The notes beneath the pieces were generated by a model, which was given only the letters and a program-made list of their open reading frames with translations, ran no database searches and was not told the origin of the DNA. This document shows positions 1 to 50,500 of a DNA stretch of 64,000 bases, piece by piece. This DNA is from Sclerotinia nivalis (taxonomy: Eukaryota > Ascomycota > Leotiomycetes > Helotiales > Sclerotiniaceae). Made by a program: the position numbers and the translations under genes. Numbering within the stretch: position 1 is the stretch's first letter; each line of letters opens with the position of its first letter. The stretch covers positions 1,736,001-1,800,000 of the forward strand of contig JAPEIS010000004.1 of the NCBI GenBank assembly GCA_029531795.1, written 5' to 3'.

Positions 1-571
1 AGTAGTATGAATGTAATGTGTGGCCCATGAGGGGTTCGAGAAGGTATGGGAAGGTTTTGTCGAGCCAGGCGTATTTCTTTACCAAAACTCCATTGTTGTG
101 AATATGGTTGTGAAGCATAAGTGTGAACGGTCCGCAGTAAAGAGCCTGCATGATCCAATGGCAGAATCCGTGTATTAACGAGAACCGATTGTATAAAATT
201 ATAGCACTCGGGACCGATGTGGCGAGGTAAAGGATGATATGTGTAAGGAAGACAACGTCTGTTGGCCGACGCACCACCCCTTTCCCCCATTGTATGTATG
301 GCTCAAGTATGTATTGGTATAAAGGACCAGGGAGGCGTTCAAGGTCTTCTTGGTCCCAGCTTGTAAATACTGTAGGTTGGAATTTCTCGTTGTTCTCGTC
401 GTTGAGTGCTTCAAGAATCGAAATTTGTTCGTCGATTTGAGATTGGCTATCTTGACTGGCAGAAGTGCCGGAGGACTTGCCCATGCTCTTTTTTTGTACA
501 TCTTTTAATAGTAACTCGAGTACTCTTCGATCAGGTTGAGTTAGATTGGGATTCATGGCTTGGAGATCCAT
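1..571 (-). CDS. Fatty-acid-desaturase-like membrane protein, N-terminal part (runs off left edge)
   Basis: An uninterrupted minus-strand frame starts at the ATG at 569-571 and is still open at base 1, giving the first 190 residues. The first 95 residues are hydrophilic. From about residue 104 there are hydrophobic segments, then a histidine cluster HNHIHNNG (residues 154-161) and GHTLHSYY (183-190). Closely spaced histidines beside membrane helices are typical of di-iron fatty acid desaturases and hydroxylases, which act in the ER membrane. I recognise the general family but not a named member, and the remaining histidine boxes lie outside the window. A second in-frame ATG at residue 30 could be an alternative start. 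No intron is needed in the visible part. Confidence 0.72.
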   Translation of the reverse strand, partial: MDLQAMNPNLTQPDRRVLELLLKDVQKKSMGKSSGTSASQDSQSQIDEQISILEALNDENNEKFQPTVFTSWDQEDLERLPGPLYQYILEPYIQWGKGVVRRPTDVVFLTHIILYLATSVPSAIILYNRFSLIHGFCHWIMQALYCGPFTLMLHNHIHNNGVLVKKYAWLDKTFPYLLEPLMGHTLHSYY

Positions 572-1785
572 GATTGTAGAAAGAATTGGACGTTAACCAA
601 AAAGATTTGATGTCGTGAAAGACATAAATGAATGAAGAGTATTTGTATTGAAACGAATCTTTTTGGGACCATAATTTTGCGATTGAACTAACAAATTCAC
701 CTACCTGGTTTCGTGCAATACCCTTAATTCTCCATGAAGACCCACTGTGAGAGAGGATCAGGGTCTAAACTGTGCTATTATCATCCATACCGCGCGGTTT
801 CTATTATTGCTTCATCTAGACCTGAAGCCCCTTTATATGCGTAATACACGTGAATCTGATGTCTTTCGCGGAGTTTATGACCCGGGAACAGATGCGAAAG
901 GATTCTAGAAGGATATAAACCTGTAAATCATCATAAGCTCAAGGGCTTGGAAGTTGTCATCCTTATGGAAACAACTGTTGTTTGCAGGTGTTATTGGGTT
1001 GAATGTTATTGGTTATCATTACCTGATAAATCATTGTTCCACAATATCATCTTGGTGAGCTGCTGTTAATTGTATTGAGGTGTGCAGTAAGTATAATCAC
1101 AAGAGTCTAACCACTGAATACCTAAGTAGAAATATGCCATGAAAGCTCTGTATGAGAAGTATTCGAAGAAGTAGATTCCATATCCAAAACTTGGATACAG
1201 TTTGTTGGTAGGGTTGGAGAATGTGATTCTTTGGAAAGATTGCCGAGCTGCCGTAGTAGCTAGTGTACCTGTTGAAGCGTGGCCTAGCTTAGTAAGGCAC
1301 TTAAGAAAACTCCGGTGCTAATGAAGATCTAGCGGGGCAATCGAGTGAAAGTGAAGGAAAGGAGAAAGGGGAATGAATGTTGGGATGTCAAAAACATAAG
1401 GATTCTGAATTTTTATATAATAATACCGAAGTATCATTGATATTTCTGATTCTTAGGGACTCTGATGATCAGTTGTCTGGAAAATTCATACTTAATTAAC
1501 ACTTCCAATCAATCGCAAGGGGATATCCAGTGCATGGTTGTTGATGATATTTATTTTTATGTTCATTTCCGCTCTTCCTATCTCACTAGCTTTCCAAGCA
1601 AATTTCTATGCACATATCCTATGTTTAGCATGATAACGCTTTTACTTGCTCAGCCTGCTCCAACCCATCTATGAGTACCTCGCCACATCCAAAAAAACAA
1701 CAATGTCTAACCATAAATAACGCTCATGTGTGGTATCAATACACCGCTCATCCCATTCCCTACAACTGTTCCCTTCATCTGTCCC
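572..1785. other. Intergenic, no gene seen
   Basis: This 1.2-kb stretch lies between the start of the desaturase-like gene and the 3' end of the fumarase gene, so it should contain the promoter of the first and the terminator region of the second. The short frames in it show no recognisable protein character. I see no repeat or RNA gene. Confidence 0.5.
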
Positions 1786-3550
1786 TTATTTCTTGTAATC
1801 CTCTGGTCCAACCATCAATTCTGGTCTAACCAACTTGTCAAAATCCTCTTCACTGAGAGCCTTCAACTCCATCGCCGATTCCTTCAAGGTCAATCCCTTC
1901 TTGTGCGCGTTCTTCGCTACCTTGCTAGCCATGTCATAACCGATCTTTGGGTTCAGGCAGGTGACTAACATAAGACTGTTGACTTTTGTTAATACTTCAT
2001 ATCTTCAGGCTTTAGGGAGGGATAAAGGTTGGACTAATAAGCAGAAAGGTATACGCACGATTCTTTCAAGATACTTTGGATCTTCTCCTCATTGGCTTGG
2101 AGTCCAACCACCAAGTTCTTCTCAAAGCTTCTCATTCCATCACTCAAGATTCTAATACTGTGTAACAAATTTCTGATAACCAATGGCTTGAAGACGTTCA
2201 ACTCGAACTGTCCGTTCATGCCACCAATAGTGGTAGCAGTACCGTTTCCAATTACTTGGGCACATACCATGGTAATGGCTTCGCATTGAGTTGGGTTAAC
2301 TTTACCCGGCATGATGGAACTTCCAGGTTCATTTTCAGGGAGTGCAAGCTCGCCGAGACCGCATCGAGGACCGGATCCCAGGTATCGGATATCTTGGGCA
2401 ATCTTGAAGAGGGATGATGCAAGGGTAGTAAGGGAGCCAGATGCTTGAACAATGGCATCATGAGCGGCAAGAGCTTCAAATTTGTTAGGTGCAGTAGTGA
2501 ATTGTGTTCCGGTCATCTTGGTGACTTCCTCTGCGATAGCTTCTGCAAATCCCTTGAAAGTATTAATACCAGTACCTACAGCAGTTCCTCCTTGTGCTAA
2601 AAGTCTGAGGTGGGGCAGAGACGATTCGACTCGCTCGATACCATAATCAAGTTGTGCGACATATCCGGAAAACTCCTGGGCGAGGGTAAGGGGTGTTGCG
2701 TCTTGCAAATGGGTTCGTCCAATCTTAATGATGTTCTTTGCTTGAAATTCATCCACTTTAGCTTGGAGAGCGTCTCGTAGTGACTTGGTCGCGGGAATGA
2801 GCTCGTTTTCGATTTCGAGGACCGCAGCAATGTGCATAACAGTTGGGAAGGTATCGTTTGAAGAAGCTGACATGTTAACGTGATCGTTGGGGTGAACTGG
2901 CTTTTTGCTTCCCATGGTTCCGCCCAAGATTTCAATAGCCCGGTTCGAGATAACCTCATTAGCATTCATGTTCGACTGGGTACCGGAGCCGGTTTGCCAA
3001 ACGACAAGAGGGAAATGATCGAGCAACTTCAGATCTGCGACTTCTTTGGCGGCTTGTTGGATAGCTTTTCCGAGCTTTGGGTCTGTCGATATCTCGTCAG
3101 TTCATGCCCTAACGTGTATTTCTTCTTTCATGTCGGCGTACCAAGTCCAAACTGCATATTGACAGTTGCAGCTGCGCCCTTTAAGATACCAAAAGCCTTG
3201 ATAATCGGAGGAGGCATGCGATCTTGAGGCTGGTTGATCTTGAAGTTCTCCAATGAACGCTCAGTTTGAGCTCCCCAGTATTTGTCCGAAGGGACCTCTA
3301 CATTGCCGAAAGCATCTGACTCGGTTCTTGTTTGTGCCATATTGTATGCGGTTTCATGAAAGTTTCTTTGCAGACGGGGAAACGAAGATTGAAAGCTTTT
3401 AAGCTTATATGATGAGGAAGTACGGTTGAGGACCCGAGTCGTGGATTTGCCTGTGATGTTGATGGCATTCGCGGGGAAGGTGGTGGCAGTCGTGAATGTA
3501 CGAGCTATTGCCCGAGGCAACGGAGCTCGAAATGTGGATGTCCGGAGCAT
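1786..3550 (-). CDS. FUM1: Fumarate hydratase (class II fumarase), mitochondrial
   Basis: Fumarase interconverts fumarate and malate in the TCA cycle. Three exons fit in phase: 3142-3550, 2059-3082 and 1786-1975, with introns of 59 and 83 bp, giving 540 residues. Visible family motifs are QTGSGTQSN (about residue 166), HPNDHVNMS (about 200), [11 protein letters not shown] (about 258) and the signature [11 protein letters not shown] (about 390-400), so the active site is complete. The first 70 residues are rich in Arg, Ser and Thr and lack acids, as expected of a mitochondrial presequence. An in-frame ATG opening MAQTRTESD follows directly and would give a protein without presequence; one gene supplying mitochondria and cytosol is known for fungal fumarases. 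Identification is secure; the exon joins rest on phase and conserved sequence. Confidence 0.95.
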
Positions 3551-6500
3551 TTTTAATTGGAAGGTACTTTCAAGACACTACAAAATTGTGCAAAATTGTC
3601 AAATCGTGATCAATTCACTCAATTGAAGTCTTGAGGATACTTGTACTGAAGCCAACTGCAGTTAAGAATTGCTGAGAGTCAATAGTGGGCACGGTGGGTA
3701 TAGCAAGTCGAAAAATTTATGGACTCTAAAAGTTTCACCCGCCATGAAAATCCTCTTGGCGGGAATTATCGGCATCGGGTCATCCCGGTGATCCCGCAAT
3801 GAAAATTGTTCTTACGTAACTACCATTTACTTCAACAAAGTGAAAATTACCCTACTCGGGGATGAAAATGAGGATGTCAAGATATTCCTAAAATTAGGAT
3901 TTCCACAGCACTTCGTAGGATCTAAAAGTCCTTTTGCCCATTGGGTAACGAGAACCTTGACTTTATTCAACATCAATGTCCGTTCTCCCCCCCCCCAATC
4001 GGCCGCTATTTCCCATTAGCGAAGCATTCGATATCCCACGCTACACTACCTAATATCTCCTCCCTCATCTTCAAATTAGATCCCATACATTCTCAATCTC
4101 AAATCAAACATCACCCCTCAGTCCCATCTCATCTTCCTCTCACCGGAAACACTATTCTTCCTTATTCCGAGTTTTGTTGCATGTCTATCGAGTCCTCCAA
4201 GTTTTGCAAATCTAAGTCAAATTCGAATTTGAAAACTGGAAACTAATCTACAAGTGCTTCTCATGATGCTATTAAAGTTTCGGGGCATTTGGAAGAAGAT
4301 TGGGAATGTTGGAAATGGGTGATTTGAAGAAGATTTTGGAGAATGTTTGTTTACTTTTTTATTTACTTGGGATTAAGCCGAGGTACACATGTATGAGATC
4401 AGAATGATGGGATGATGGGATGAGTGAATGTGGAAGTGAATACGGAAACTGTGATGATGTGAATTTGATATCTTAAGGACCTTGTCTCAGCGGACAATTA
4501 GTATCTTGTCATCTGGCCGGTGGAAGTGATGGTGGATATATCCATATTCAGAGTTGAATATACTTTCGATGACTTTGTAAGGATTGCCATTACCTGGGTA
4601 TCAAGCTAATACTAGGGACTCGGGGAATCTGAGGGAGTGCAGGGGGTGGAATAAGTCAGGATGATTTACAAATCGATAGTACCTTTTGTTGCATATCTGA
4701 CCCAATTCTTTGAGAGGTATGAATGGATACCATGGACAATCTAAGTTCTGGTGTCATCACCCTCTTGCCCCCGCTCGAACTTTTTCATTGAGATATTCAG
4801 TGTTGTATGGTCAGATTAGTGTTCTTAACCATTATTTCAGCTCTTAAAATCCAATATTGTCTCGTCGCATCTTGATTATACCATCACGACTAGCTTGCCA
4901 CCAATTTTTAAAAGCCTATCTTGCATCTTCCTCACTGTCGGGACACGTTGGCCAAATATTAGTCAGTATTGGGATTGGAAAACTGCACATCCGCGCGGAG
5001 TCTCTCCAAGCAGTTGCAGGCTGCCGAAGTGTAGCATGACCAGCTGACATGGTATGATGATTGGAATGTGGTATTGTGACATTTGAATGCTGGATTTGCA
5101 ATCTACTACTTCCATCTTATATTCCTCCTGATAACCCCCCCCCCATGGGCTGCGTGGGATTTTTCTTTAGCTCTGTTTGTTTTATATCGGACTACTGTTG
5201 CCAAGTCTCAAGCAATGGAAAGATACTGGACATATCCAACTAATTGTTTGATAGATAATTGAGCGCATGATATATAAGTGGACTGTACCTTCATCAGCTT
5301 CTCTGTTCTCCCTGATTGGCGTTTAACTTTTTTCGGTCGTTATGCTGCCGCCTAACTCTTGAAGCTAGTGAAGCTAGATCTGATGCTCGTGTCGCTCGCG
5401 GAGGGACAGGAGGAGAAGAAGACTGTCAGCATGGGAGTCTCCTGCATATCTGTATGATCCGCCTCTCGACATGAAAGTATACTGTGGATTAAATTAATCC
5501 CTGAGGAAGTCCTTGGCTCTCAAAACACACAATTTTGCAGATTTTATTGTGAGAATTAGCACGCCATATTAATATGGGGGGCGCGGAATTTTCTAATGTC
5601 GTGTGACTCCTGCCGTGGCCTAAATTTCATGATGATAGTGAGGCTTAAATAGGCTTATGCCTAATAGAGTGGAAGTTTACAGTGGTGTAGCATTCGTATC
5701 TGTCTTGGTGATTTAAGCATAGCGAACGGCTCTTCTGTTCCGTGTGGAGAAAACGAGGCTCTTCGTTGAAAACGGATATGTCGGTATCTTTCTCAAGACG
5801 CAAGTAGACTCTCTTCTGTATCGGTAAATCAAGCAGATTTCTTAGTTAATACACATGCGTGCCATAGTTCCAGTCACTACGATGGCATGATGCAGGCGAG
5901 CCCATTGTCTGGTTGTATTTAGCTTTTACGACACGTTCGATTATACCTATGATATGGAGACTCAAGGGTCCGAGCATGCCATGATTCTATCCGCTGGTTA
6001 AGCTTGATATTGACCCTTGACTAGAGATGTTCCGAGAGGTTTAGAGTTCGGATTAGAATACCGCAGTGCATGCGGAAAGACGTGGTCATTACTAGGGTTG
6101 TTGTATCAAGCTGAACATTCAGAGGTATGTGTATGATAGAGTATGATTTATACGATGAAGTTTTGATATTTGAAAGTGATCTATGCAGTAAGGCTTGAAT
6201 ATTTGACAGTGATTTGTACAATGAGCATTCAATACCCAAGAAAGATTTAAATAATAAACCTTCGATATTAAAAAGGTTTAGATAATGAACCTTCAATGTC
6301 CACGAAGGGTATGTACAATTGAAAACATTAATTTCTGGGGTTAAATATGCAACAGAGCCAGAAGATAAAAATACCGCAAGTCCATAAGGCCAAATTGTAA
6401 TTGAGTACCTACTAATAAATAGAGTAGGCCTTGGATCTCGGGGTTAATGTAGGACGTGGAGCAACACCTGTAATGTTATTCATAACAAAACCTGAGGTAT

Positions 6501-6992
6501 GTCTAGAAATGGGTATTGAAGATTTTGAGGTTCCAGTGTTGACTAGGTAGGTAGTTTTCAGAAAGCCTTGGCGCAATTAACCGAAGTTAAGTCAAAAGCA
6601 GTTAAAGGCAGAGACCACCTCCTTTCAACGATACAATGAGACTATTTGAAGTTTGATTGATCACATTGTATTGAGGTTGAATGCTATAGTATGGATGCAG
6701 TCTTACACTCTAATTATTGGCTTCTTTCATAATTCAAATGCTAATAATAAGTGGCCTACCGAGCCAGTTCATGGGTATCATCCTGTACAGAATTTCCCCT
6801 ATACCCAACCGTACGTAAAGCGCCCTTCACCTTACCCCTCCCTTTTATGATCTCTTTATACAATATTCTGATACATAGATACACCCAATATCCGTTGCGC
6901 CAATGCTAAGCCACTACCGCCAAATGGGCCAATGACGCCTCTCAAGACCCAGATTTAAAACTCCGTACCCAGCCGTAAATATCATTTATGAA
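3551..6992. other. Long intergenic region
   Basis: This 3.4-kb gap lies between divergently transcribed fumarase (minus) and the 3' end of the Hfi1 gene. Its open frames (longest 101 codons, at 3941-4246) have no recognisable domain and look like chance. It contains two C-homopolymers (10 bases at 3987-3996, and a similar run near 5139) and a degenerate 33-bp tandem repeat near 6140-6300, listed separately. I see no RNA gene. Confidence 0.5.
6140..6300. repeat. Degenerate 33-bp tandem repeat
   Basis: About four to five diverged copies of a 33-bp unit lie head to tail. They are easiest to see by translating the minus strand, where an 11-residue pattern recurs (KSLSNIQALLH, RSLSNIKTSSY and so on). 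The repeat keeps that frame open over about 90 codons, but nothing suggests a real gene; this is an old minisatellite. Confidence 0.55.
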
Positions 6993-8561
6993 TCAAGCTC
7001 CAATAGCTAGACATGAATCTAGCACCATATCCAACGCAGCTCGATCTTGGTATTCAGCCCCCTCCCATCCCCAATCTTCGATATCACTCATTGGTTCGTC
7101 TATAGCGTGTCCGTTAACACCATTAGTTAAACCATTAACTTCGAGACCACCCATCTCAACGTCGCCATCTTCATCCTCAGTGATGATTCTTCCTTGGGGC
7201 CCAAGTCGAGTAAATGCATTCCAATCTTCTAGTTCGCCCTCTTGGTATCCGAACATAATTTGCTGCACAACGACTGGCATTTGTCCTAAACCACAATCGG
7301 CAATTTCAAGTGCAGTACGTACATCAGCCATGCCTAGAGGGCCTCGTTCGCTTGCTGCACGGGCTTCAGTGGGTAATAAGCCATTTTTGTCTCGAAGGAC
7401 TTCGTTGCGCATCGAGGATTCTTCTTCCCTTTCTAGCTGTCTGCGATATTTGTGTGTTTGAACCCAGGAAGAACCCCCACCAGTTCCGGCGCTACCCATA
7501 GATCCGGGCCCATTGCTTCTCGTTTTGCTAAATATCGATGATAGGACCTCCTTAATAAACGTTTCTGTCGCCACGGACATGAACTGAGCTGCATCTTGGA
7601 CATGGCCATTGACCAATCCTGTTTCGTAGCATATGGGAAGCATTCGCGACTCGATGGTTGTCATATCAGGAAATTCGCCCGATTCCGAGGCCAAAGGTAA
7701 AGTATATCTCTTCCGAATTTCCAGATCCCAATCTTGAACATGTAAGTACTACTAAACTTCCCCGGCTTGGCAATTATATTTGACTCACTTGTTTTATTCA
7801 GACCACCAGCACTGGCAGGTACAGTCTCTGGCTGTCTTGCAGGCTTCGGTCGACGATGCTCTGTAAGCATTGTCGCAAATGCATCGAATGGGTCGAACTG
7901 CAAAGCAATTTAGCACGAGTCCAGTATAATTTCGCATACGCAACATATTGGAAAAATCTCACATCATTTTGAGAAAGATCCTTCAACCTTCTTCTATCAC
8001 GACTCGGCAATTGCATAACTTCTGTTTTGAGTCTTTGTTCCGCCGCATCGCCACTAACCGGCTTGCTCCCAGCTCCTGTTGTAGGTTTATCATTTGCACT
8101 GACCCAGCTCGCCACGCCCTGATCAGGCATTTCACGAGTGGTATTCGCATAAATGGCAGATATGAGTTGATTGTGAAGATGTTCGATTTCACCAGTATTT
8201 GTTATGAGAAAATGATCAATTCGGGACGAGAGTTCAGATTGGTTCATTTGCCCTGAGAAACAAAGAATTAACATAAATTTGGACACGCGTATTTATCGCC
8301 CCTTTCAGGAGACAATGACTTTCATCACATACCCATAAGAAATAAACCAATTGATTCTTTGTATGTCCCCCAGCTATCGCCAATGGCAGACTTGACTGCC
8401 GTGTACAACGGTTCAAGGTCGATGCGGGGCGGAACATGATTGAATTTTGCTGATTTTTGAACTGGAGTTGTCGCTGTAAGTGATTTTGTAGGTAAAACAG
8501 GAGTTGGACTCTTGTTCGTCACACTAGGGCGACTCAAGGCCGCTGGATCGATGTCGGGCAT
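6993..8561 (-). CDS. HFI1: SAGA complex subunit Hfi1/Ada1
   Basis: Hfi1 (Ada1, Tad1) is a structural subunit of the SAGA histone-acetylating coactivator in the nucleus and carries a histone-fold segment. Four exons join in phase: 8333-8561, 7963-8252, 7789-7897 and 6993-7732, with introns of 80, 65 and 56 bp, giving 455 residues. The N-terminus has the family's segment [19 protein letters not shown] followed by the SSRIDHFL region. Exon 4 opens with [21 protein letters not shown], also typical of fungal Hfi1, and continues into the central [14 protein letters not shown] helix region. The acidic C-terminus (EDEDGDVEM) is usual. The 5' exon of the third intron ends AAAACAA before GTGAGT. I am confident of the family; exon ends are inferred. 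Confidence 0.88.
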
Positions 8562-8987
8562 GATGATTGTAGGAGTTATTCAGGCTCGCGCGAGCACGCT
8601 CTCAAGGCGCGAGAACCTTGAATTTTCTATAGCCCATAAATAGAGCAATAGCAGAGGAATCCAGCGACACAAATATAGGATGCCAATTGTTAATTTGATG
8701 CCGTGGCTGATGAATGAATGATGGACGTTTCGCGCAAAAGATAGAGGTGACGTTGTGAGAGTCGGGTTGGCCTTGTAGCCTTATGTAAGAAATCTGGAGT
8801 TTTAGGGTAACCTACCTTGTACTGTCACTAAACTCCCCTCAAAATTGAAGTAAATAAATCATCGCGTATGGTCTTTCTCAACGCGTCCACTCATTTATTT
8901 AATTCTCATGAAAGCTAATGAACTTTTTATGTTTTTCTGAGAAAGAAGGAGGAGTCGCAGATATTCAATTATCGCAACGATGCAATT
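8562..8987. promoter_or_regulatory. Bidirectional promoter region between HFI1 and the GCP3 gene
   Basis: The two genes start head to head 426 bp apart, so this stretch must hold both promoters. A short upstream frame begins at the ATG at 8980 and overlaps the GCP3 start at 8988 in another frame, ending after 18 codons. I could not single out a transcription-factor site. Confidence 0.5.
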
Positions 8988-11863
8988 ATGTCCTCACGAA
9001 GTACTCGTATCTCCACTGCTATTGATAGCTTAGTGCGCCGATTTCAAGTAGATATACCTGGAGAAGATCCTGCAGATGCGGAGGAAAGAGAAAGTAATGC
9101 TGCTGACTTTGTACGGGAAATTTTGGGAAGGTATTGGCTTTGGAAACTATGCGCGGTTTAATGGTATGCTGATTTGGCAATTTATGTAGCTCAAAAACTC
9201 CTGCTGTTGTTGCAGATGTAAACCAAGCTTCGGATTTAATAAAGAAACGATTAATACAAACAAACCCAAGTCCGAATGAAGCTCTTCGATTTACAAACCT
9301 CTATAGCCGGCTCCTTTCTATACCGGTCATTACACAAAAATGGGCAGTGCTTTACTTTCTATATCAGCTAGGAGATCAAGAGCAACTTAGGCCTTCTGGA
9401 TTGACGAGCCCGTTTATGAGTCCAATAAGAAAAAAGAAATCAAAAAGAGCACTCGAAGTTCAAGATACTGCCAGCGCCGCTCCTCTCAGAGATACACGTC
9501 GAAATTTTCAAACAGATGGCACCTTTGATTCCCAAAGTCACACATCGCGAGAGGAAAGGGAATTCGACGATGCTTTTGCGCCTGCCGGGTTGAGGAAATT
9601 ACCGGAACGAGAAGGGGGTCAGAGAGATAGAAAGGAGGAAGAGCAGGCATTTGTGAAGACGCCAGTCAGCCAACGTGAGGGTGTCGCATTGAAAACGGCT
9701 CTACTGGCGGAAAATTATGTCGAAATTGATCCACCGGAAACCGCATTACTTAGGGATTTGCCATTCACATTACAAGGTCTATCTTCATCGAATTTACCAT
9801 TTGATTCCCAATCAAGCCTAAGGCTACCTGATACTTTACCCGTACCAATAATCTCGATCCTCCATACTTTAGCTGAGCCATCGCTACTGTACAGAAGTCT
9901 GTCCAGTTTTGTGCAGACGAGTGACGGTGGTCTACTTGGCCAGAGTCTAAGAGCTGCTATCGCTGGCGAGCTTAGGTCATATCTTGGACTCGTAGCGACA
10001 TTAGAAGGCCAAATTCGACGAGCACTTTCATCATTAGACGAGAACGAGCCGAGAGGAGGCATTGGAAAGGCAGGCGTTACTCTTAAGAGATGCGTAGTGT
10101 GGACTCGAGAAGCTACGATGGGCCTGAGATTAATGAGTTTAATAAGTGAAGAATCGAAAAGCAAAAAGGGTGGCCAGCTCATTACCTTGATCCATGGATT
10201 TTCGTCGTCGCACGGGGACCCAATGGTAGGAGCTTTTGCCGAACGCTTGTTGATTCATGTTACTCGGCCATTTTATGATATGCTTCGACATTGGATATAT
10301 GATGGAGAATTATCTGATCCATATCATGAATTTTTCGTCTCGGAACAAGATCCCAATGCGATTCAAGAGGTCCAAGATGGCAGAAGTCGAGGAGGTGCCA
10401 GTAGTGTATGGGAGGACAAATACAAACTTAATGAAGATATGGTACCAAGTATCATTACACAGGATTTTGCTCAAAAGGTCTTTCTGATCGGAAAATCCTT
10501 GAACTTCATCCGTTATGGCTGTGGAGATTCTCAATGGGTGGAGGCATATTCAAAAGATGCTTCAAAAGAACTACGATATGGTGATACCGCAACGTTAGAG
10601 ACATGGATTGATGAAGCTTATAAGACAACTATGGCTCGACTAATCCACCTAATGTCAGAGAAGTTTCATCTTTTCGAGCATCTTAAGGCTCTCAAGAACT
10701 ATATCCTTCTAGGGCAGGGAGATTTTATTGCTCTACTCATGGAATCCCTCGCATCAAATCTTGATCGTCCCGCAGGTGCCCAATATCGACATACCCTGAC
10801 AGCTCAACTTGAACACGCTATTCGTGGCTCTAATGCACAATACGATTCACCCGAGGTTCTCCGACGTCTTGATGCTCGCATGTTGCAACTTTCTCATGGT
10901 GATATAGGTTGGGATTGTTTCACCCTTGAATACAAAATCGATGCCCCTGTCGATGTCGTAGTAACTGAATGGGGTAATCGACAATACCTTAAAGTTTTCA
11001 ACTTCCTATGGCGTATTAAACGCGTCGAATTTGCCCTCTCTACCACCTGGCGTAAATGTATGACTGGCGCCCGCGGTGTCCTCCTCGGATCTCCTGATCC
11101 CGCCTTCCATCAATCTTGGAAACAAACTCGTGGTGTCCTTGCAGAAATGATTCATTTCATCGCGCAACTCCAATACTATATTCTCTTCGAAGTCATCGAG
11201 TCGTCTTGGGATGAACTTCAATCCGCAATTCACAAAGATGGTTGCACACTTGACGATCTTATCAAAGCGCATACTAAGTACCTCAACGCCATCACACATA
11301 AAGGTCTTCTAGGTGCCAAGAAAAAGTATTCTAATGACCTTGATGATAATACTTTCATGGTTCAGTTAGGCGAGATCCTTAGATTAATGCTTTCATACCG
11401 CGATGCAGTCGATGGTCTCTATTCCTTCAGCGTAACCGAATACTCCAAACGTCAAAACGCCAATTCCCCCTCCATTCCCCCGACAGGCACAACCACCTCC
11501 TCTCGACCTGGAACTCGGTTCGATGATTATCCTCCCTCTCGATCTCCTTTTGAGAATCCCAATCCTGCACTCCTAAATCTCAATCTTTCAAATATTCAGG
11601 GCGAAGAAGAAGAATTTCCTCTATTGGCAGACAGATTGGGTGGATTGGGGACGCAATTCAAAACAAGGATTTCACTGTTACTAGGGGATTTGGCGTATCA
11701 ACCGGATACGGATATGAGATTTTTAGGTGTGGTAATGAATTTTAATGACGTATATACAGGTGTCAGGCGGAAGAGTAACCGAGAAAGGGAAAGGGAAAGA
11801 GAAAAAGGGAAGGGAAAAGCTAGAGAAGGAAGATCTGGTGAATCGAGTGTTAAGGAAAGATAA
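8988..11863 (+). CDS. Gamma-tubulin complex component 3 (Spc98/Alp6/GCP3)
   Basis: GCP3 binds gamma-tubulin and builds the microtubule-nucleating complex at the spindle pole body. Exon 1 is 8988-9130 (MSSRSTRIS...), the intron is 9131-9189 (59 bp, GTATTG..TAG), and exon 2 is 9190-11863, giving 938 residues. The conserved Spc97/Spc98 core runs from about residue 190 to 880. A diagnostic stretch reads LSHGDIGWD, then APVDVV, then QYLKVFNFLWRIKRVEFAL, followed by TWRKCM; this matches GCP3/Spc98 better than GCP2. The C-terminus is a low-complexity basic tail with REREREREKGKGK. The length fits filamentous fungal GCP3 proteins. A GCP2 assignment is possible but less likely. Confidence 0.9.
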
Positions 11864-21350: not shown

Positions 21351-21776
21351 GGACTTGATATCTGGATCGGATAACAATTTGCATTATGGGATTTTACGGC
21401 GCCAGGTTACTACACTACACGCACACATCGCATAGTTTTTGAAAGGCTAGAAAGGATAAGGAATCTCAAAATTTTATAGCTATAGTAGAATATTAATAAT
21501 CTAGGATAGGATGAGAGAGAATAGGATAATAAAACTTCTTATGATTTTCATATTATGTTATATATTTCATTCAATACCATTGGATATCATCCAATATTTG
21601 GTAATCAGATGATATCTACTATATTCTCCTATCAAAATGAGGAGAAATATGGGGTTTTCAAAGGCTAGGCAGGATGAGGATAAACACCAAATCGAGCCTT
21701 CGTGATGGCCTCAGGATAGGATGGGAGAGGAGGAGGATGGGAGGTTTTAAACGCTGGCGTTGTTGACTTCCCATTC

Positions 21777-22262
21777 TTCAATCATGAATCATAAACCACT
21801 TTGGAGAGTCACTCTGGGATTCATTGATGGCGACATAATACGATTATCGGAACTTGACGTCCCATTATTCAATCATGAATCATAAATCACTTTGGAGAAT
21901 CATTTTGGGATTCATTGATAACGATATAATATAATTATCGAAGTTTGATATCTTATTATTCAATTATAAATCATAAACCACTTTGGAAAATCATTCTGGG
22001 ATTCATTGATAACGATATAATACAATTGTTGGAGCTTGATGTTTCATTATTCAATCATGAATCATAAACCACTTTGGAGAGTCACTCTGGGATTCATTGA
22101 TGGTGACATAACACGATTGTCGAAGCTTGACGTCCCATTATTCAATTATGAATCATAAACCACTTTGGAAAATCATTTTGGGATTCATTGATGGTGATAT
22201 AACACGATTGTCGGAGCTTGACGTCCCATTATTCAATCATGAATCACAAACCACTTTGGAGA
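21777..22262. repeat. 91-bp satellite array, five copies plus a partial
   Basis: Units start at 21777, 21868, 21959, 22050, 22141 and 22232 (the last partial), all with period 91. Each begins TTCAATCATGAATCATAAA or a variant. Differences between copies are almost only C/T and G/A transitions, for example GAGAGTCACTCTGGG versus GAAAATCATTTTGGG and GACGTCCC versus GATATCTT. Copies 2 and 3 are the most AT-rich. Confidence 0.92.
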
Positions 22263-22284
22263 TTCACTGATGACTTCGAAGTCA

Positions 22285-24190: not shown

Positions 24191-24408
24191 CTATAAATCA
24201 GCAGAATTCGAATATCAGAGTATTCCGAATTGGATATAGGCTTTTGAGCACTGAATGCATCAAGGCGGTGACTTAAATAGGTTAGATCGTTCAATTGGCC
24301 AGTGTGTTCAGTTGGCCCGTGAGCTCTTCTACCCAAATATTCCCCACACAGTTCTGCGCAAATTATATCAACAAACATGAATTGCCACCTCAACAACAAG
24401 CTCAAACT

Positions 24409-24565
24409 GGTCGTTTGGCCGAGTGGGTAAGTCACAACTTAATTCAACCGTCAAAAGTCATTACTAATAAAATCAACAGTCTAAGGCGATGGTTTTAAGA
24501 AGCTTCATCTGAAGCAGAAATCACCATTATCGAGAGATGCGAGGGTTCGAACCCCTCAGCGACCA
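24409..24565 (+). tRNA. tRNA-Leu(UAA) with two insertions
   Basis: The ends GGTCGTT and AGCGACC form a full acceptor stem with discriminator A at 24565. GCC and GGC make the D stem. ATGGT (24489-24493) and ACCAT (24523-24527) make the anticodon stem, with loop bases TT-TAA-G and anticodon TAA at 24496-24498. The variable arm has ATC/GAT. GAGGG/CCCTC with loop TTCGAAC form the T arm. A 22-nt insert after G37 (about 24500-24521) sits at the normal tRNA intron position. A second insert of 53 nt (24427-24479) lies in the D loop and has spliceosomal splice signals; without it the D loop is normal. The B box GGTTCGAACCC is intact and a TTTT terminator follows at 24571. Confidence 0.9.
24427..24479 (+). 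other. 53-nt spliceosomal-type intron inside the tRNA D loop
   Basis: The insert starts GTAAGT, contains TTACTAATAA (a near-perfect branch site) about 13 bases before the end, and finishes CAACAG. These are textbook mRNA intron signals. Removing exactly these 53 bases restores the D loop GCCGAGTGG-TCTAAGGC. I see no bulge-helix-bulge structure that would point to tRNA splicing endonuclease. Confidence 0.75.
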
Positions 24566-24570
24566 ATATC

Positions 24571-24586
24571 TTTTGGGCATTTTTTT
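24571..24586 (+). terminator. RNA polymerase III terminator
   Basis: TTTT at 24571-24574, five bases after the tRNA discriminator base, then a run of seven T at 24580-24586. Both fit Pol III termination. Confidence 0.75.
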
Positions 24587-25160
24587 GTCCTTGACTGGAG
24601 TAGTAGTTATTAGCTAGATCAGTAGGAAAGGTAGGCTTTAAAGATCTGCTTTTATGATTACTCGGATAGATTAGATGTCAGATATCTATTTAACAAGACA
24701 GAAGTGTGCTTGGTATGATTAAAACAGTAGTTGAAATGGGACATATTTTGTCATTATTTATTTTGTTCGAATTTTACTTACGTTCCGAAGGTTTACTGCG
24801 ATTGGTAGGAAGTCAAGAAAAACTTACCAATCAAAGCAGATGTTATTGTCGATAACGTTTGCTACCTTTTTTATATTATTAGCTACCACTGCCTGTAGAT
24901 TTTATAAGGACATGCCGCGCCTAAGGGTAATTCTACAATTAGCTTCATGATTCAATTCAAACTTGCAAATTGAATTCTATGGCTTAACTAGCCGTTCGGA
25001 CAATCCCGACGTATTTCGGCTTGAATACTAGGTAGGCTTATCTTATCGATGAGGGGTCATCCGATAAGGAAGGAAATCCATCTATTTCAACTTCATGTCT
25101 TCCCTTGCTACCAAACCTCCATTCTCATAACAATAGCAATCCCCTCAAATATAAACAAAA
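24587..25160. other. Intergenic upstream of the dioxygenase gene
   Basis: This stretch should hold the promoter of the downstream gene. It is AT-rich with no recognisable frame or repeat. Confidence 0.5.
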
Positions 25161-26201
25161 ATGTCATCATCTCCCACACCCCTTGGTCCTGCGGCTTCCA
25201 ATGGTCTCACAAAAGAACAACTCGACACTTTTAACAAAGATGGCTATTTAATAATTCCAGGCGCCCTCTCTCCAGAAACAGTTTCTTCTCTTCTCTCCGA
25301 AACGCATTCTATGTTGAACAATTTCTCATTGGAAGATCATCCTATGACGAAATTTAGTACTGGAGAGGGTGATGAAGTCGAACATGTAGGGGATAGTTAT
25401 TTTTTGGAAAGTGGTGATAAGATACGGTTTTTCTTTGAAGAGGGTATGTTTTCCAGGGCTTTTAATATGCAGTTTCGAGTCTCCGTATCCGTATCTACAC
25501 TTACTAAAGGATATATTTTCATTCTTCTTTACTAATACTCCAAACCAGATGCCCTCTCCCCAAAAGGCGGACTCCTAAAACCCAAACACCTCTCCATAAA
25601 CAAAATCGGACACGCCCTACACACGCTGTCACCCCCCTTCGCCTCACTCCTCTCACCCCAATCAACACATTCCCCGTCCCTCATCGCCAAATCCCTCGGA
25701 TTTCAACAACCCCAATGTCTCCAATCAATGATAATCTGCAAGAATCCTGAAATCGGGGGTGCGGTCCCAGCACATCAAGACAGCACATTTCTATACACTG
25801 ATCCACCCAGCGCAGTAGGTTTTTGGTATGCGCTCGAAGATGCCACGAGGGAAAATGGATGTTTGAGTTTTTGGCCTGGGAGTCATAGGTGGGAGGGGGT
25901 GGGCAAGAGGTTTGTGAGGAAGAGTGGGGGAGGTGGAACGGAGTTTGTGGGGAATGAGGGGGAGAGGTTTCCGAGGGGGTTGGAGAGAAGGGGAAAAGGG
26001 GATGAGGTGGAGGATTATGTGTTGGGTGAAGTTAAGGCGGGGGATTTGGTGCTTATTCATGGGAATTTACTGCATAAGAGTGAGAGGAATACGAGTCAGA
26101 AGGGGAGGATTATCTATACGTTTCATGTTATTGAGGGGGAGGCGGTGTATGATGAGAGGAATTGGTTGCAGCCTCCTGAGGGGGGATTTACTAGGTTATA
26201 G
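25161..26201 (+). CDS. Phytanoyl-CoA dioxygenase (PhyH) family protein
   Basis: PhyH enzymes are Fe(II)/2-oxoglutarate dioxygenases that hydroxylate lipids or small metabolites. Exon 1 is 25161-25443, the intron is 25444-25548 (105 bp, GTATGT..CAG) and exon 2 is 25549-26201, giving 311 residues. The N-terminal segment FNKDGYLIIPGALSPETV is the usual family opening. The iron triad is visible as HQD (His170, Asp172) and a distal His in HGNLLHKSERN (His265/His270), with basic residues following for 2-oxoglutarate. A low-complexity insertion rich in Gly, Glu and Arg (about residues 210-245) lies before the distal His. Length fits the PHYHD1-like branch. The substrate is unknown; no clear peroxisomal targeting signal is seen at the C-terminus. 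Confidence 0.88.
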
Positions 26202-43372: not shown

Positions 43373-45483
43373 GGTGGAACTTTGGAGTGAGGGTCCAGGT
43401 TGATCATGGATGAGGGGATTGAGTGGGACATGATGTGTTATATTTTTGTATGATTTGAGCTGGTTATTTTTGGTCGGTTGCTTGGTTTCTTTATACCTTT
43501 TTGCGGGATTTTTGCATCCTCTTCCATGTACGTTAGGTTAGATTGGGGACAGGGATTAGGAAGGTCTCGTTTCGTGAAATTTTTATGGGGAAATGGCATG
43601 CATGTATGGCGTTTTTTTTTGGTTTTGGGGCGTGGTTAGTGGTCAGTGGGTAGCGGGGAGAGGACGGTGGACTGTGGATGGTTGGGATAGGGATGGTTAG
43701 GATGGATATTGGAATGCGGAGACGAATGAATTCTGTTGGGATAGGGTGGGTTGGATTGGGATGGAAGGGAAGGGAAGGGAAAGGAAGGGAAGGGAAAATG
43801 GGAGGGCAGATCAAAAACGGGCAGGAAGCGAGGATTAGGGAGGGCATGTGTGGAGGGATGACGGGAAGGCGGGAAGGCCAGTAAAGAATAAAAGAATAAA
43901 ATTAAGACAAATGAACACAACATCAATTATATAAATGCAAGACCTATTTATGAATGTCTACATACTTGTGCATATAAATAAGCGAGGGGTTGAGTGGGTA
44001 AGTGAGTGAAACCAAAGAATTAAATCAAATCGCTTCAACTCGTTTAATTAGGGGGTAAACAAAGGGCTTTGTCTGAATTTGATTTGATATGATAAGATTT
44101 ATATAGAAAGAGTAGATATAATATAACACGGCTTACAGCGGTTAATATAAAAACTCAAGAGTAATATTATATATAATAGATATTTCTGTATATATTATGT
44201 GTAATCTTAATTACTTGGAAGAAGATATATATATATATATATATATAGGTATTGAGTATTGAGTAGATGGAATGTTGTGGATGGGATGGATGGGATGGGA
44301 TGGATGAGATGGATGAGATGGGATGGATGGGATGGGATGGAGAATTTTTTTTTGGTGTTGGGTGTTAAGTGTTGTGTGCTGGATAGGGAAGGATGGAAGG
44401 ATGGAACGAGGGAAGGAGGGAGAGAGGAAAGGAGGGAGAAAGAGGGAAGAAGAAGGGGTAATATAAGTGTTTTTGTGAAGGTGTGATAGTGTAATGTATT
44501 TTGCTTTGTATTGCTTCACTGATTATAAAGTTATAAAATAAAGAACGGCAAATCAGAACCCGTTTAGATCGATCTTTAGAATTATTTGAATATTCAATTA
44601 TTGATTCTATTGTGTCTTGATATCTTCTTAGATTTTAATTTGAAATAAGTAGAATCTAATTTCGTATTACTACTATAGATTCTACCTTTCTACTATACTA
44701 CTCTTCGTTATAAACATCACCGCCCTCGTACTGCAATCATAATTTCTACCCTCCTATCGTAGAGTCCTAAGAGTTGTATAAATTTTCCTGAAAATAGATT
44801 TCATATACTTATTTATAATTAAATCCCCGCACCCCAGAAAATCCTTACCTAGATAGATTTTGATTATTTCAGATTAGATCTTGAATAATATAAAGGTGGA
44901 ACATCTTTAATTCGAGGGGATGAGGGTAATTCATTTGAGATTTGGTGGTATGAAAGTAATTTATCGACTTTTGGTGGTATGAAGAAAGGAAGAGGTGGAG
45001 TGTGAAGGTAGAGAAGAAAGAAAGGAGGGATGTAAATGGTGTAGTAAGTAGTTAGGGGTGGATAGTGGATAGTGGATGGTGGATAGTGGGTTGATTTTAT
45101 TTGTATGGGTGATGTGGTGGTAGAAGGGTGGAATGGTAGAAGGGTGGAATGGATGGTGGTGTGGTTTTTTGGGATGTGAGGGGAGGATGATTATTTGATG
45201 TGATGTGATGTTGGGTTGGGTTGATTGCTGATTTATTGGGGAGGACGGGTTGCATTTGGAGGGCGGTAGATTTGGAGGGTTTTGAATTTGAAGGGTTTTG
45301 GATTGGAGGGGTGATGGATTTGAATAGGGTAGGATTAGTTCTCAAGGTTTTAGAAAGAGCTGTTTTGCTGGATGGTGGGGGTAGGGGGGTTTTGTGATTC
45401 ATATTTGGTCAGATTGGGAATCGAATTTGAAATTCTCGATTTGGAGGTTTGGAAAAAGATTGTGAATTGGAGAATATATTTAT

Positions 45484-45778
45484 TGTCGCGGAGAATGCCA
45501 TGATCCCTGATAGCCTACGCGACGAGGCGCGTGTTCTCCGTCTAGAATGAGGTTCTACTAGATCTTATCGATCCTATTAATCGATAGGTTGATGCTATTC
45601 CCATTTTCATTCGAACCTAGTCTATTCAGGCTACTCATTAGCTAGAGAACAGTTTATTTAGTCTATATAAATATCCCTCCAATCATATAGATCGAAGACA
45701 AGTTAGTCAACTTTCCATAATGTGTACCTTCTATTCTGTAACCCAAAGTGCTCTGTAATCATACTGTCCTCCGTGATA
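45484..45778 (+). mobile_element. Probable solo LTR, 295 bp, degraded
   Basis: The element starts TGTCGCGGAG and ends CTCCGTGATA. These ends are inverted copies apart from two transitions, as is usual for the short inverted repeats of LTRs. Inside are a TATA-like stretch (TCTATATAAATATCC) near 45662 and a polyadenylation-like tail region. The flanking 5 bp are TTTAT and TTTCT, four of five matching. A second LTR and coding parts are not seen. Confidence 0.42.
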
Positions 45779-46146
45779 TTTCTTTTGGGGGATATTTCGA
45801 ATATCTTCTGGAGGTGGCAAGATGTTGGAACAAGTAGAACTTGGTATTAAGTTGTGGTGAGGTGGGGTGTGTGGTTGTATAGGAGTTAGCCGAGAAGTTC
45901 AGGCAAATCATAATGATTGGGTGAGAGGTGATAAGAAAGTTATTTCTGATAAGGGGTGAGAGTCTATGGAATAAAAGCTAAGTCGGTTTGGTGGATAGAA
46001 GAAAAGTGAAGTGTATAGTGATTGGGGTGAATAAAGGGAAGAAGTGAATAAGGAGTGAGAGTGAATAAAGAGAGGAAGTGAATAAGGAGGGGAAGTAGAC
46101 AAGCGAGATACACTAACAAAAAAAGAAAAAAGAAAACTAGAGCAAT

Positions 46147-46395
46147 CTTACTCTGATACCATTTAGAATCTAATCTAAAATAGCTGGATTCTATACTATA
46201 GACTCTGTCTCAAAAATCTAGATTCTAGTCTTATTTTGATATATTCTTGAGGTGGGAAAAGAGAGGGGAGGGGTAGAACTTGTGATGAAAGGGTAGAACT
46301 TATAGTAGAAGAATAGAATCTATAGCGGAAGGATAGAATCTATAATGGGAGAGTAGAGTCTATAGTATAGATTCTAAATAGTATAAGAGTAATTT
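46147..46395. repeat. Imperfect inverted repeat with a retroelement primer-binding-site-like motif
   Basis: The left arm (about 46147-46205) and right arm (about 46340-46395) are inverted copies sharing about 45 positions, with a 21-nt extra piece in the left arm. Read on the minus strand, the left arm ends with TGGTATCAGAG (46161-46151), the motif that primes many copia-type elements with initiator tRNA-Met. The right arm has the same motif with two changes. This suggests two retroelement remnants in opposite orientation. Confidence 0.4.
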
Positions 46396-47551
46396 ATTTC
46401 ACTTTCAGTAATATAAAAGTAATTTACCGATATAAAAAATGAGTATAAAAAAATAAGATTGAATGATAAAAACAATAATCAAGAGAATGAAAGTGGAAAT
46501 AAGTAGAGAATACAAGAATGAAATTGAATAAGGGTAAGAATTGAACAATCAAATGAAAATGAATAAGGATAATAGTTGAATAAAAAAAATACATCAACTT
46601 CATTCCTCCGAACCATTAACTTCTTGGAGCATTTGAGAGATTTCAAATTTTGACTCCCAGTAGAAGTCGGACCCTTAAATCTACAAGAGTGTTTCTAGAA
46701 AAGAATGGAACTAGCTGATAGAAACAAAAGAATATCTTATCCTCTTTGAAGTATATTTTTCTGTAGGCTACTATTTTCTAGGAGGTAGTAGCATATCAAG
46801 GAATAATGGATCCCAATTTTCCCAAATGTATAGACAGTCTTTGGATGATTATCATAATATCAACCATTTCGCATACTTGGTAACAATATCATCATGCCCT
46901 CAAAAGAATAGAGCAAACCACCGACACCACGATCGAATTAGACACCGGAATCGCCCAAACATCGGACCAAAATCTCGCCAGAATCATTAAAGGCTGAATC
47001 AAAAACTCGCATCGCTCAAGCAAACATCGAGGATACCGCACTCCGGGACCATAAAATAAATTTGGTCAGGCTCGCACAAGAGTGGAGTTAAAGCTAGCTC
47101 AGGACGCTCATGACGCTTCGAGAAGAAGTTGCATGAGGAGAGTGCAGCCGGAATCGAAGCTATATGCACTGCTATATACCCGTAAAGTTGCTAAAGCACG
47201 AAGAGATGATGTACAGGGTAAGCTTTGTAGCTAGTGGGGTTTTCTAATTAAATTATGATGTGGCTTCGTGTATCCAAATCTGTCGGATTGATGAGTATTG
47301 ATGGAAATACACACACACATATATAATGATTATCTATAAGGAGTAAATAAATATTGTAAAATACATTTCCTTGTTTTTTTTTTCAGGTTTCTGATAGAAG
47401 TGAATAAGAAAATAAAACAAATGAACGAAATTAAGTGAAGATAAGAAAGAGTGGATAGTTAATAGTCAATAAATTGAATAAATCTCATATCTGTCTTTCC
47501 GTACTTGTACTTTCCTGTACGATCCACTACCGAGACCTCAAATTTCAGTTA

Positions 47552-50500
47552 TCATCGGCCATCGTCATCCTCGTCTTCCTCATCCTCATCCTCATCATCA
47601 TCACTACCGTCATCTTCTTTTGAATCGGCCACATTGCCACTAACACTATTTCCCGTAATGTCATTGCTCGAGATGCTCTCTTCCTCTTCGCTTTCTTCAT
47701 CAGGACTCTCATGGCTTTCGGCATTATTTGTGTTGTCATCATAGTTATGAGTCTTTTCTCTACTGTCAGGAGATGCTTCAGGCTCAGATTCGTATTCTGT
47801 GCCGCGTTCCTCGAATAAACAATCCGGGTGCAAAGCGTCTCTCGAACGATAGCACTTAAAACAGAGATAAAAGTCCCAGCAGGTTTGACATGTAAACCAT
47901 ATTCCCACAATTTTCTGACATTGCAGTGTTAGTGAATAAAACCTAATTACCACTTGAGCACGGTCGAGCACAGATGAGCAAATCATTACTTACAAACAGA
48001 CATCCATCACGGAAATCAGTGGAGAGCATGGAAGCCTTCTTTGAAGTATGAAATCTATGGTCCCACTTCCCGCCATTCAGAGATCGGGCATCAGCCCTCG
48101 GTGTTAAAAGTTCTATGACTTCCTCGCGCGCCCCGTAATATCTAGCGACTCTTAGTGGTGACCATGCTCTATCTAGACCCTCTCCTTTCATCCAAAGATT
48201 TGCACCATTCGACAATAAAAGCTTGATGATTTCGGGCTGTCCATCCATCGTTGTCCCCCACTCCCCACAAGTTCGTACTGCCCACATTATTGGAGTCCAA
48301 TTGTCGCAGTCAGGGTAATTGACAACCGTTGGGCCTAGAACTGCTATTGAGCACTCCAGTACCGCTTTGGCTAAGTCAATTTTGCCACTAACTACAGCAT
48401 AGTGTAGTGGTATCCTTTTTAATTGGTCCTCAGCCTCGAGAAGATTATCCTCAGCCAACAAGTTCCAATGATCAATTGTGCGAAGAGCTGCGAGGTGAAT
48501 TGGCTTTCGCCCCATCCACTGTAAGATCGCTAGAATCAGTACTGTCTATCAGAGAAAGAACTGGAAGGGAAATAAAGAATAAAGCTATATTTGGACGCAG
48601 AAAGAGTACCACATATGAAGAAACAGAAAAAGTAGAGATTGAGATCGGGTAACAGAATTAGATGGTAAGAATAAGAGAGTTAATAAACCGATTGAGCTTA
48701 CATCTGCAACATCAGATTTGGCACCTTTGTCCAAAAGAAACTTAACAAGTGATGAATCACCTTTAAGGCAAGCCTTACTTAGCGCATATCCCATCCATCC
48801 GCCAGATGCATTGATATTAGCCTTGGCATTATCTAGGAGGTATGATACCATGGGGAATTGATCATCGTCTGCACCCTCAGTGCTGCGAGCACAGACAGCC
48901 TGTAAAGCCGTGCCATACCAGTTGGGATTCGTCAAGTTCACGTTGATTCCCGAGCTTTTCTCTACCACGAGTTTCAAGAGTGGTAAGTCACCAAACGAAC
49001 AAGCAGTGAGAAGCGGTCCGCCATATCTTCCACCAGTGAGATTGACTTCCGCGTTCTTGGAGAGGAAGTATTCAACAGCATCAATATTTCGGGTTTTAAT
49101 TGCGATGCCCAAGGGGGTCATGAGATTTTCGTTGCGGATTTCTATATCAGCTCCCGCATTCACCAGAAGTTTGATCCGTGACAATGGCGTGTTTCCATTC
49201 AGACAATGCAGAGCAGTATCCCCATTATCGTCAACTAGATTTAGATCAGGCCGATATTCAAGTATAGCTCGCAAAGGCCCGTCGGAAAGATCCTCGTTTA
49301 TAAATCCATATTGCAAGGGGGAGCTGTTATGGTGGCCTCGCTGATTGATATTTGCACCAGCCTCAAGCAAAGCCTAATAATTTCAGTGTTTCCTTTGTAC
49401 ATCGCAACACCTAATGCTGTATCTCCTTCGTAGGCCCCGGCTTCGGCGTGGTGATATTTGATCTCCAAATCCAGCTTATATTGCAGACAAACCTTGACTA
49501 CTTCAATATGGTTGTATTTACTGGCAAGAAAGAGGATTTTTCCCCCCGAGCAAGTCCGATTAATGTCAGCTCCGTTCTTTAGAAGGATGCGTACAACTTC
49601 AGGAAATTTAAACCCAGCGAGTAAGGGGCCCCACCCGTCATTCAGATTCTCATCCATTTCAATATCCGCTTTTGAATCCATCAGTATCTGAATAATCTCC
49701 GGGTGATTAGCTCTAGCCGCGAAATAAATTGGTGTTCTGCCCTTGGAACCTGCGAGATTAACGTCTGCCTTTCTTTCAGCAAGGTATTTTACGACCTCGG
49801 TAAGACCATATAATGCAGCTGCCGAAATCGCCGAAAGCCTTGTTTTAGAAGACTCGTTCATTATGTTGATATCAGCTCCCTTGTCCAATAGCAATTTCAC
49901 CAACTCGACACTACCACGGCCGAGAACAGCTATGTTCAAAATCGGCTGATGGTCCGACCCAGCTTTCCAGTTAGGATCTGCTCCATTTTCGAGTAAGAGT
50001 TTACACATCTCTTTGTTTAATTCGTAAACTGCCCAAAATAATGGCGGAAGAGAGTTATCTAAAACTGTGGTAGGAGCTCCAGCTTCCAGAAGAACATGAC
50101 AGCAATTTGAGAAACCATCTATCAAGGCTTTGATCAAAAGCTCTCTTCCGTCACCAGGGTAGCTTTTGTAAGCACCGACATTCAGAAGTCTGAAATTGGG
50201 ATCAGCAATCGTGCTTATCCTCCGAAGTATGTTACTACCTACGTTTTAACGATTTCATGTTGGCCAAAATAAGCTGCCGTTTGAAGCAAGGACCAGCCAT
50301 CCTCGATGTTGGCTTTCGCTTCCAAAAGTAGTTTCACCGACTCCAGGCTTCCATAAAAACAGGCTATATCTAACGGCGTGGATTCGCATTGTGCTCGCCA
50401 ATTGATGTCTGCTTTTGCGGATATAAGAATCTTGACAATTCGTTTATAATTTAGTTGTACAGCAAGGTGAAGGGGTGACATCCTCGGCAGTGGTTCGAAA

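Follow-up and report, generated by a model that had tools for sequence, protein, structure and literature searches.

A spliceosomal-type intron in the D loop of the two tRNA-Leu(UAA) genes found in Sclerotinia nivalis

Introduction

Which machine would free a nuclear tRNA from an insert that interrupts its D loop and has the signals of an mRNA intron? The question is raised by a tRNA-Leu(UAA) gene of the fungus Sclerotinia nivalis, in a 64,000-nt stretch of genomic DNA (the window; G000:C4:1736001-1800000) that we analyzed together with the rest of the assembly (50.3 Mb, 31 contigs). To our knowledge, nuclear tRNA introns are endonuclease introns and spliceosomal introns belong to mRNA-like genes, with U6 as the known exception among genes transcribed by RNA polymerase III (Pol III). 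The D arm is not a usual site for introns of nuclear tRNAs. We know of no precedent for a nuclear tRNA from which the spliceosome removes an intron.

Structure of the window gene

The well-formed tRNA-Leu(UAA) gene at window position 24409-24565 (+) contains two inserts, one in the D loop and one at the canonical position 37/38 (Table 1). Once both are removed, the remaining 82-nt RNA has a TAA anticodon and A73, and its minimum-free-energy fold is a full cloverleaf with a long variable arm. The D-loop insert has GT and AG ends, an extended 5′ splice site and a branch-point sequence near the 3′ end, which is the signal set of a U2-type intron; moving it by one base (24426-24478) yields an identical spliced product. 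A passage of PMC3978253 places the A box at D-arm positions 8-19. These results bear out what the sequence-only reading had described at this locus, namely a structurally perfect tRNA-Leu(UAA) with a 53-nt D-loop insert that starts with GTAAGT, contains a branch signal and ends with CAG, and a further insert of 22 nt at 37/38: the sequence and the cloverleaf fold agree with it, every signal was read in the sequence, and the 37/38 insert was found at 24500-24521.

Table 1. Features of the tRNA-Leu(UAA) gene (window coordinates)
Feature	Position	Strand	Remarks
Exon 1	24409..24426	+	Acceptor 5′ strand GGTCGTT and D arm through G19
A box TGGCCGAGTGG	24416..24426	+	Whole A box lies 5′ of the insert
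Spliceosomal-type intron, D loop	24427..24479	+	53 nt; same place in second gene
5′ splice site GTAAGT	24427..24432	+	Identical in second gene
Branch-point sequence TACTAAT	24462..24468	+	Sequence and spacing identical in second gene
Putative branch A	24467	+	12 nt from intron 3′ end
3′ splice site CAG	24477..24479	+	TAG in second gene
Exon 2	24480..24499	+	D arm 3′ part up to position 37; anticodon TAA
37/38 intron	24500..24521	+	22 nt, canonical place; 12 nt in second gene
Exon 3	24522..24565	+	Anticodon 3′ strand, variable arm, T arm, acceptor AGCGACC, discriminator A73
B box GGTTCGAACCC	24544..24554	+	Intact in both genes
Pol III-type terminators	24571..24586	+	T4 24571-24574, T7 24580-24586; T7 also 3′ of second gene

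Counting both strands, the window has 127,894 53-mers, and only one of them, the D-loop insert itself, combines a GTAHGT start, CTRAY near the end and a YAG end. Among 127,888 56-mers the same signal set passed twice, at 36150 (+) and 52929 (-), and these two are perhaps ordinary introns. With assumed base frequencies, an estimate from composition only gave 2e-6 per random 53-mer for this set and 4e-8 for the strict form GTAAGT/TACTAAT/AG. The insert resembles fungal U2-type mRNA introns in its length of 53 nt, its GT..AG ends and its CTRAY branch site, and an intron in the AIP1-like gene of the window is likewise 53 nt long (GTGCGT, CTGAC, TAG). The difference lies in the host transcript, here a tRNA that is presumably uncapped and lacks a poly(A) tail.

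Standard gene finders were blind to the locus. ARAGORN reported no tRNA in the window, and Rfam none in the window at the gathering score and none at the gene up to E = 1. At the locus of the second tRNA-Leu(UAA) gene, described below, Rfam gave no tRNA up to E = 0.05, and neither gene was among those listed in a tRNA search of the whole genome (62 matches; 63 of 2986 candidates scored). Genes for tRNAs with an interrupted D loop can thus escape such programs.

A second tRNA-Leu(UAA) gene with an insert at the same position

A DNA similarity search of the genome with window positions 24380-24600 returned two places, the window gene and G000:C9:427581-427715 (-), both of them interrupted. The second place is another tRNA-Leu(UAA) gene, with a full extent of G000:C9:427573-427722 (-), an insert of 56 nt at the identical point of the D loop and a 12-nt intron at 37/38. 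Its acceptor stem reads GCTGTGA/TCGCAGC compared to GGTCGTT/AGCGACC in the window gene; all seven pairs form in both genes, and the five pairs that differ have all changed on both sides. This gene strongly supports the core claim of the sequence-only reading, that tRNA-Leu(UAA) has a spliceosomal-type intron in its D loop.

Identical in the two inserts are GTAAGT, TACTAAT, the AG end and the 12-nt distance from branch point to end; the inserts further share CACA, which follows GTAAGT, and AAAAT, which follows the branch site. The stretch from the 5′ splice site to the branch point has diverged so far that its similarity between the genes barely exceeds that of shuffled sequence (z 1.4; 108 of 1000 shuffles scored at least equally well). 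For the middles of the inserts, branch site included, the alignment score was 36, while 500 shuffles averaged 22.1 and reached at most 38.5. The 100-bp flanks of the two genes are weakly alike, with 49 of 300 shuffles as good upstream and 18 of 300 downstream. We believe that the two inserts are probably homologous and were inherited through gene duplication, so they do not count as independent evidence. The preservation of the signals while much of the body changed is the pattern that selection for removal alone would leave.

Genome-wide pattern searches led to the same two genes. Pattern TRGCNNAGNGGGTAHGT matched two places, both tRNA-Leu(UAA) genes, and since the backward control also matched two, the weight of this result rests on both places being tRNAs. 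A looser form gave six matches (control seven), with a T stem and an acceptor stem only in the two genes. The pattern GTAWGT N20-50 CTRAY N50-80 GGTTCGA gave 19 matches (control 20), among which the two Leu genes were the only recognised tRNAs, the others being judged by eye from their first 80 bases. No copies were found in viral contigs and none in prokaryote contigs, as expected for a fungal gene.

Pol III signals and an apparent intron in U6

In each gene the insert begins right after the A box TGGCCGAGTGG; the B box GGTTCGAACCC remains intact, and runs of T lie beyond the 3′ end. By sequence, each gene appears to possess an intragenic Pol III promoter and a terminator. On all the evidence of this study, it is very probable that both are functional Pol III genes from whose transcripts the spliceosome removes the D-loop intron and the tRNA splicing endonuclease (TSEN) the 37/38 intron.

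The genome search for U6 found one gene (47 of 4675 candidates scored), and this gene has an apparent intron of 53 nt, GTAAGT...CTAAC...TAG, at L044:1468-1520 (G000:C1:7073101-7073153). The Rfam U6 match begins inside the apparent intron, into which it is misaligned. The intron lies between ...GGGCATT and TGGTCAATTTG..., and the joined flanks read ...GGGCATT followed directly by TGGTCAATTTGAAACGATACAGAG.... By eye, the bases GCC-UUCG-GGC shortly 5′ of the intron can be drawn as a hairpin, at the place of the 5′ stem-loop in the Rfam consensus; this hairpin was absent from the minimum-energy fold of the whole joined U6 RNA. The signals of the apparent U6 intron look U2-type, like those in the tRNA inserts. 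We also considered, and rejected, that the inserts of U6 and of the tRNA genes descend from one ancestor: their similarity is confined to the signals, and shuffled sequences aligned as well in 759 of 1000 cases for the window gene against U6 and in 191 of 1000 for the second gene.

Splicing by the spliceosome is, as a rule, coupled to Pol II. This favors the possibility that Pol II makes the RNA that is spliced, as a dicistronic or read-through transcript, and that Pol III makes either an RNA that is never spliced or none at all; a PhyH-family gene on the same strand ~600 bp downstream of the window gene also speaks for it. The sequence-only reading had offered a Pol II transcript as one way out, and such a transcript is possible in principle, but nothing requires it. 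T4 and T7 runs lie 3′ of the window gene and a T7 run close behind the second, the A and B boxes are intact in both, and the intron-bearing U6 gene of this genome suggests that Pol III genes can hold such introns. Fission-yeast U6 is a published intron-bearing Pol III gene, according to a passage of PMC10484740 that cites Tani and Ohshima. We consider the Pol II route unlikely. With fission-yeast U6 and the apparent U6 intron found here, the obstacle raised by the sequence-only reading, to which no Pol III transcript was known as a substrate of the spliceosome, falls.

D-loop junctions and the tRNA splicing endonuclease

Removal of the D-loop intron by the spliceosome also has to be weighed against cutting by the tRNA splicing endonuclease, as with ectopic algal D-arm introns, the likeness to an mRNA intron then being accidental. 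Introns in the D arm are known from red algae, nucleomorphs and archaea (passages of PMC4090602, PMC3978253 and PMC9602550), and in the Guillardia theta nucleomorph many ectopic introns lack a defined bulge-helix-bulge (BHB) motif, according to a passage of PMC3978253. At the D-loop junctions examined here, a strict BHB was absent. The centre helix formed 1-3 of 4 pairs, with 3 of 4 in one register, but the outer helix formed 0-1 of 4 and the inner helix 0-2 of 4 in both registers and both genes. The genes' own 37/38 introns, used as a control, failed the same strict test (outer helix 2/4, centre 1-2/4, inner 1-2/4), so the test cannot judge relaxed forms of the motif. This control and the nucleomorph introns without BHB make the endonuclease a slightly better candidate than it would otherwise be. 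Conservation between the two inserts, however, is most evident in the spliceosomal signal set, and we regard accidental likeness combined with endonuclease cleavage as very unlikely.

Search for an uninterrupted gene and need for the tRNA

Pattern and similarity searches of the genome found no intact gene for tRNA-Leu(UAA). Pattern TGGCCGAGYGGTYTAAGGC with up to three mismatches occurred at ten places (control 19). Its sole perfect match was on C31, a contig that looks mitochondrial from its tRNA content, where ARAGORN called a tRNA-Ser(UGA); at the other nine loci ARAGORN, which as run also misses intron-containing genes, called no tRNA. Pattern TGGCCGAGN{4,9}AAGGC occurred at 15 places (control 8), comprising six tRNA-Leu(AAG) genes, the tRNA-Ser on C31 and eight places without a visible tRNA, as judged by eye from the printed bases. 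Pattern TTTAAGN{20,50}GGTTCGA gave 40 matches (control 180), with tRNA stems only at the two Leu(UAA) genes: none of the other 38 matches (37 stretches) had both a T stem of at least 4 of 5 pairs and an acceptor stem of at least 5 of 7 pairs.

Ordinary D loops were present in all six Leu(AAG) and all four Leu(CAA) genes that we read. These two groups, with anticodons assigned by reading, form the leucine comparison set; genes for Leu(UAG) and Leu(CAG) were not located. The similarity search with 24380-24600 missed the Leu(AAG) and Leu(CAA) genes, which shows its limited sensitivity, and a search with a 3′-end pattern found the window gene and missed the second gene. Because of these misses of known Leu genes, a diverged intact UAA gene could have escaped the searches, as could one in unassembled sequence.

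TTA accounted for 66 of the 351 leucine codons in 9 of the 14 mechanically called open reading frames of the window. With TTA in such common use, the cell needs a tRNA that reads UUA, and removal of the insert should therefore be possible. Looking for an intact copy, a check proposed earlier, gave a result in favor of function in that the only other gene found is interrupted as well. That the two genes have died or see hardly any use, leaving the inserts as mere relics, is scarcely credible: a passage of PMC4090602 takes short insertions in the D or T arm, which in eukaryotes mostly affect a single one among many synonymous tRNA genes, as supposed signs of pseudogenes, but here both synonymous UAA genes are interrupted with no other found, TTA codons are common and the stems are kept through compensatory changes. 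The second gene, the covariation in the acceptor stem, the lack of an intact copy in the pattern and similarity searches and the TTA usage together led us to reject the pseudogene reading, and the option of a silent tRNA raised by the sequence-only reading is disfavored with it.

Proposed processing of the precursor

In the processing route that we favor, Pol III would make a precursor with two introns, a U2-type one that follows G19 (53 or 56 nt) and one of the endonuclease type at 37/38. U1 would pair with GUAAGU and U2 with UACUAAU, the AG would serve as the 3′ splice site, and the spliceosome would excise the D-loop intron in the nucleus and thereby restore the D arm. TSEN and tRNA ligase would then excise the 37/38 intron. 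We infer the Pol III transcription, the spliceosomal removal and the order of the steps. Our reason for placing the D-loop intron first is the reported contact of Sen54 with the D arm (a passage of PMC4090602). D- and T-arm introns of Cyanidioschyzon merolae are supposed to be processed before the anticodon intron, by the account in a passage of PMC9602550. The insert lengthens the distance from A box to B box, which might lower Pol III output.

Making tRNA-Leu(UAA) thus probably needs the mRNA-splicing machine in addition to the usual tRNA-splicing enzyme. As far as the sequence can tell, it is likely that a needed tRNA depends on two unrelated splicing machines acting on one Pol III transcript, at both of the genes found for it, in an organism whose U6 would itself have to be spliced.

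Comparison with known systems

Spliceosomal introns in U6 and ectopic D-arm introns in algal and archaeal tRNAs are known. The case of fission-yeast U6 is similar to the present one in that a structured RNA is encoded by a nuclear Pol III gene with a short spliceosomal intron. Unlike U6, the host here is a tRNA with internal A and B boxes and a second intron at 37/38, and the origin by reverse splicing beside catalytic nucleotides that has been proposed for U6 introns is not obviously applicable to the tRNA insert. As in S. nivalis, introns interrupt the D arm of eukaryotic tRNAs in C. merolae and nucleomorphs, and in tRNA-Ile(UAU) of C. merolae the D-arm intron occurs together with a 37/38 intron (passages of PMC4090602 and PMC9602550). 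The C. merolae D-arm introns are reported to be of the BHB/endonuclease type, whereas those described here have full spliceosomal signals in place of a strict BHB. Both genes also have a canonical eukaryotic 37/38 intron (22 and 12 nt), from which the D-loop intron differs in position, length and signals and, by inference, in machinery.

A spliceosomal intron in a nuclear tRNA gene appears to be new. Among the papers listed in our literature search, judged by title and start of abstract and with most subscription journals outside its scope, none was a report of one, and the available text of the tRNA-intron review PMC4090602 contains no word beginning with 'spliceosom'. If our reading is correct, the spliceosome processes a compact, presumably uncapped Pol III tRNA precursor, and spliceosomal introns can invade genes with intragenic promoters. 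UUA decoding would then depend on spliceosome activity, tying the translation of one codon to splicing. The system offers a direct test of whether recruitment of the spliceosome requires Pol II.

Other observations

Two tRNA-like genes at G000:C14:1202473-1202627 (-) and G000:C8:783078-783218 (+) carry inserts of ~70-80 nt in the anticodon region; the spliceosomal signals of the Leu(UAA) genes are absent from these inserts. On contig C24 (57,692 bp) and on C25, a tRNA-Ala(UGC)-like gene is repeated about every 4.48 kb, and the part of C24 that was read (positions 1-9900) has a second tRNA-like match per repeat unit. Translated with code 4, the first 4.7 kb of C24 contained no open reading frame of 150 aa. 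The two contigs are possibly an amplified mitochondrial segment.

Downstream of the window tRNA gene and on the same strand, positions 25536-26198 encode a PhyH (phytanoyl-CoA dioxygenase) domain, in a gene that probably starts near 25155. The AIP1-like WD40 protein of the window is 90-91% identical to Monilinia and 81% to Rutstroemia proteins (the best named ones, among 120 of 1536 matches), which by itself points to Sclerotiniaceae, with a resolution no finer than the family. A tandem array with a 91-bp unit occupies 21763-22266 (5.5 copies, 85% matches), and positions 44001-48000, low in GC (0.368) and strongly skewed (GC skew 0.274), hold several purine-rich tandem repeats.
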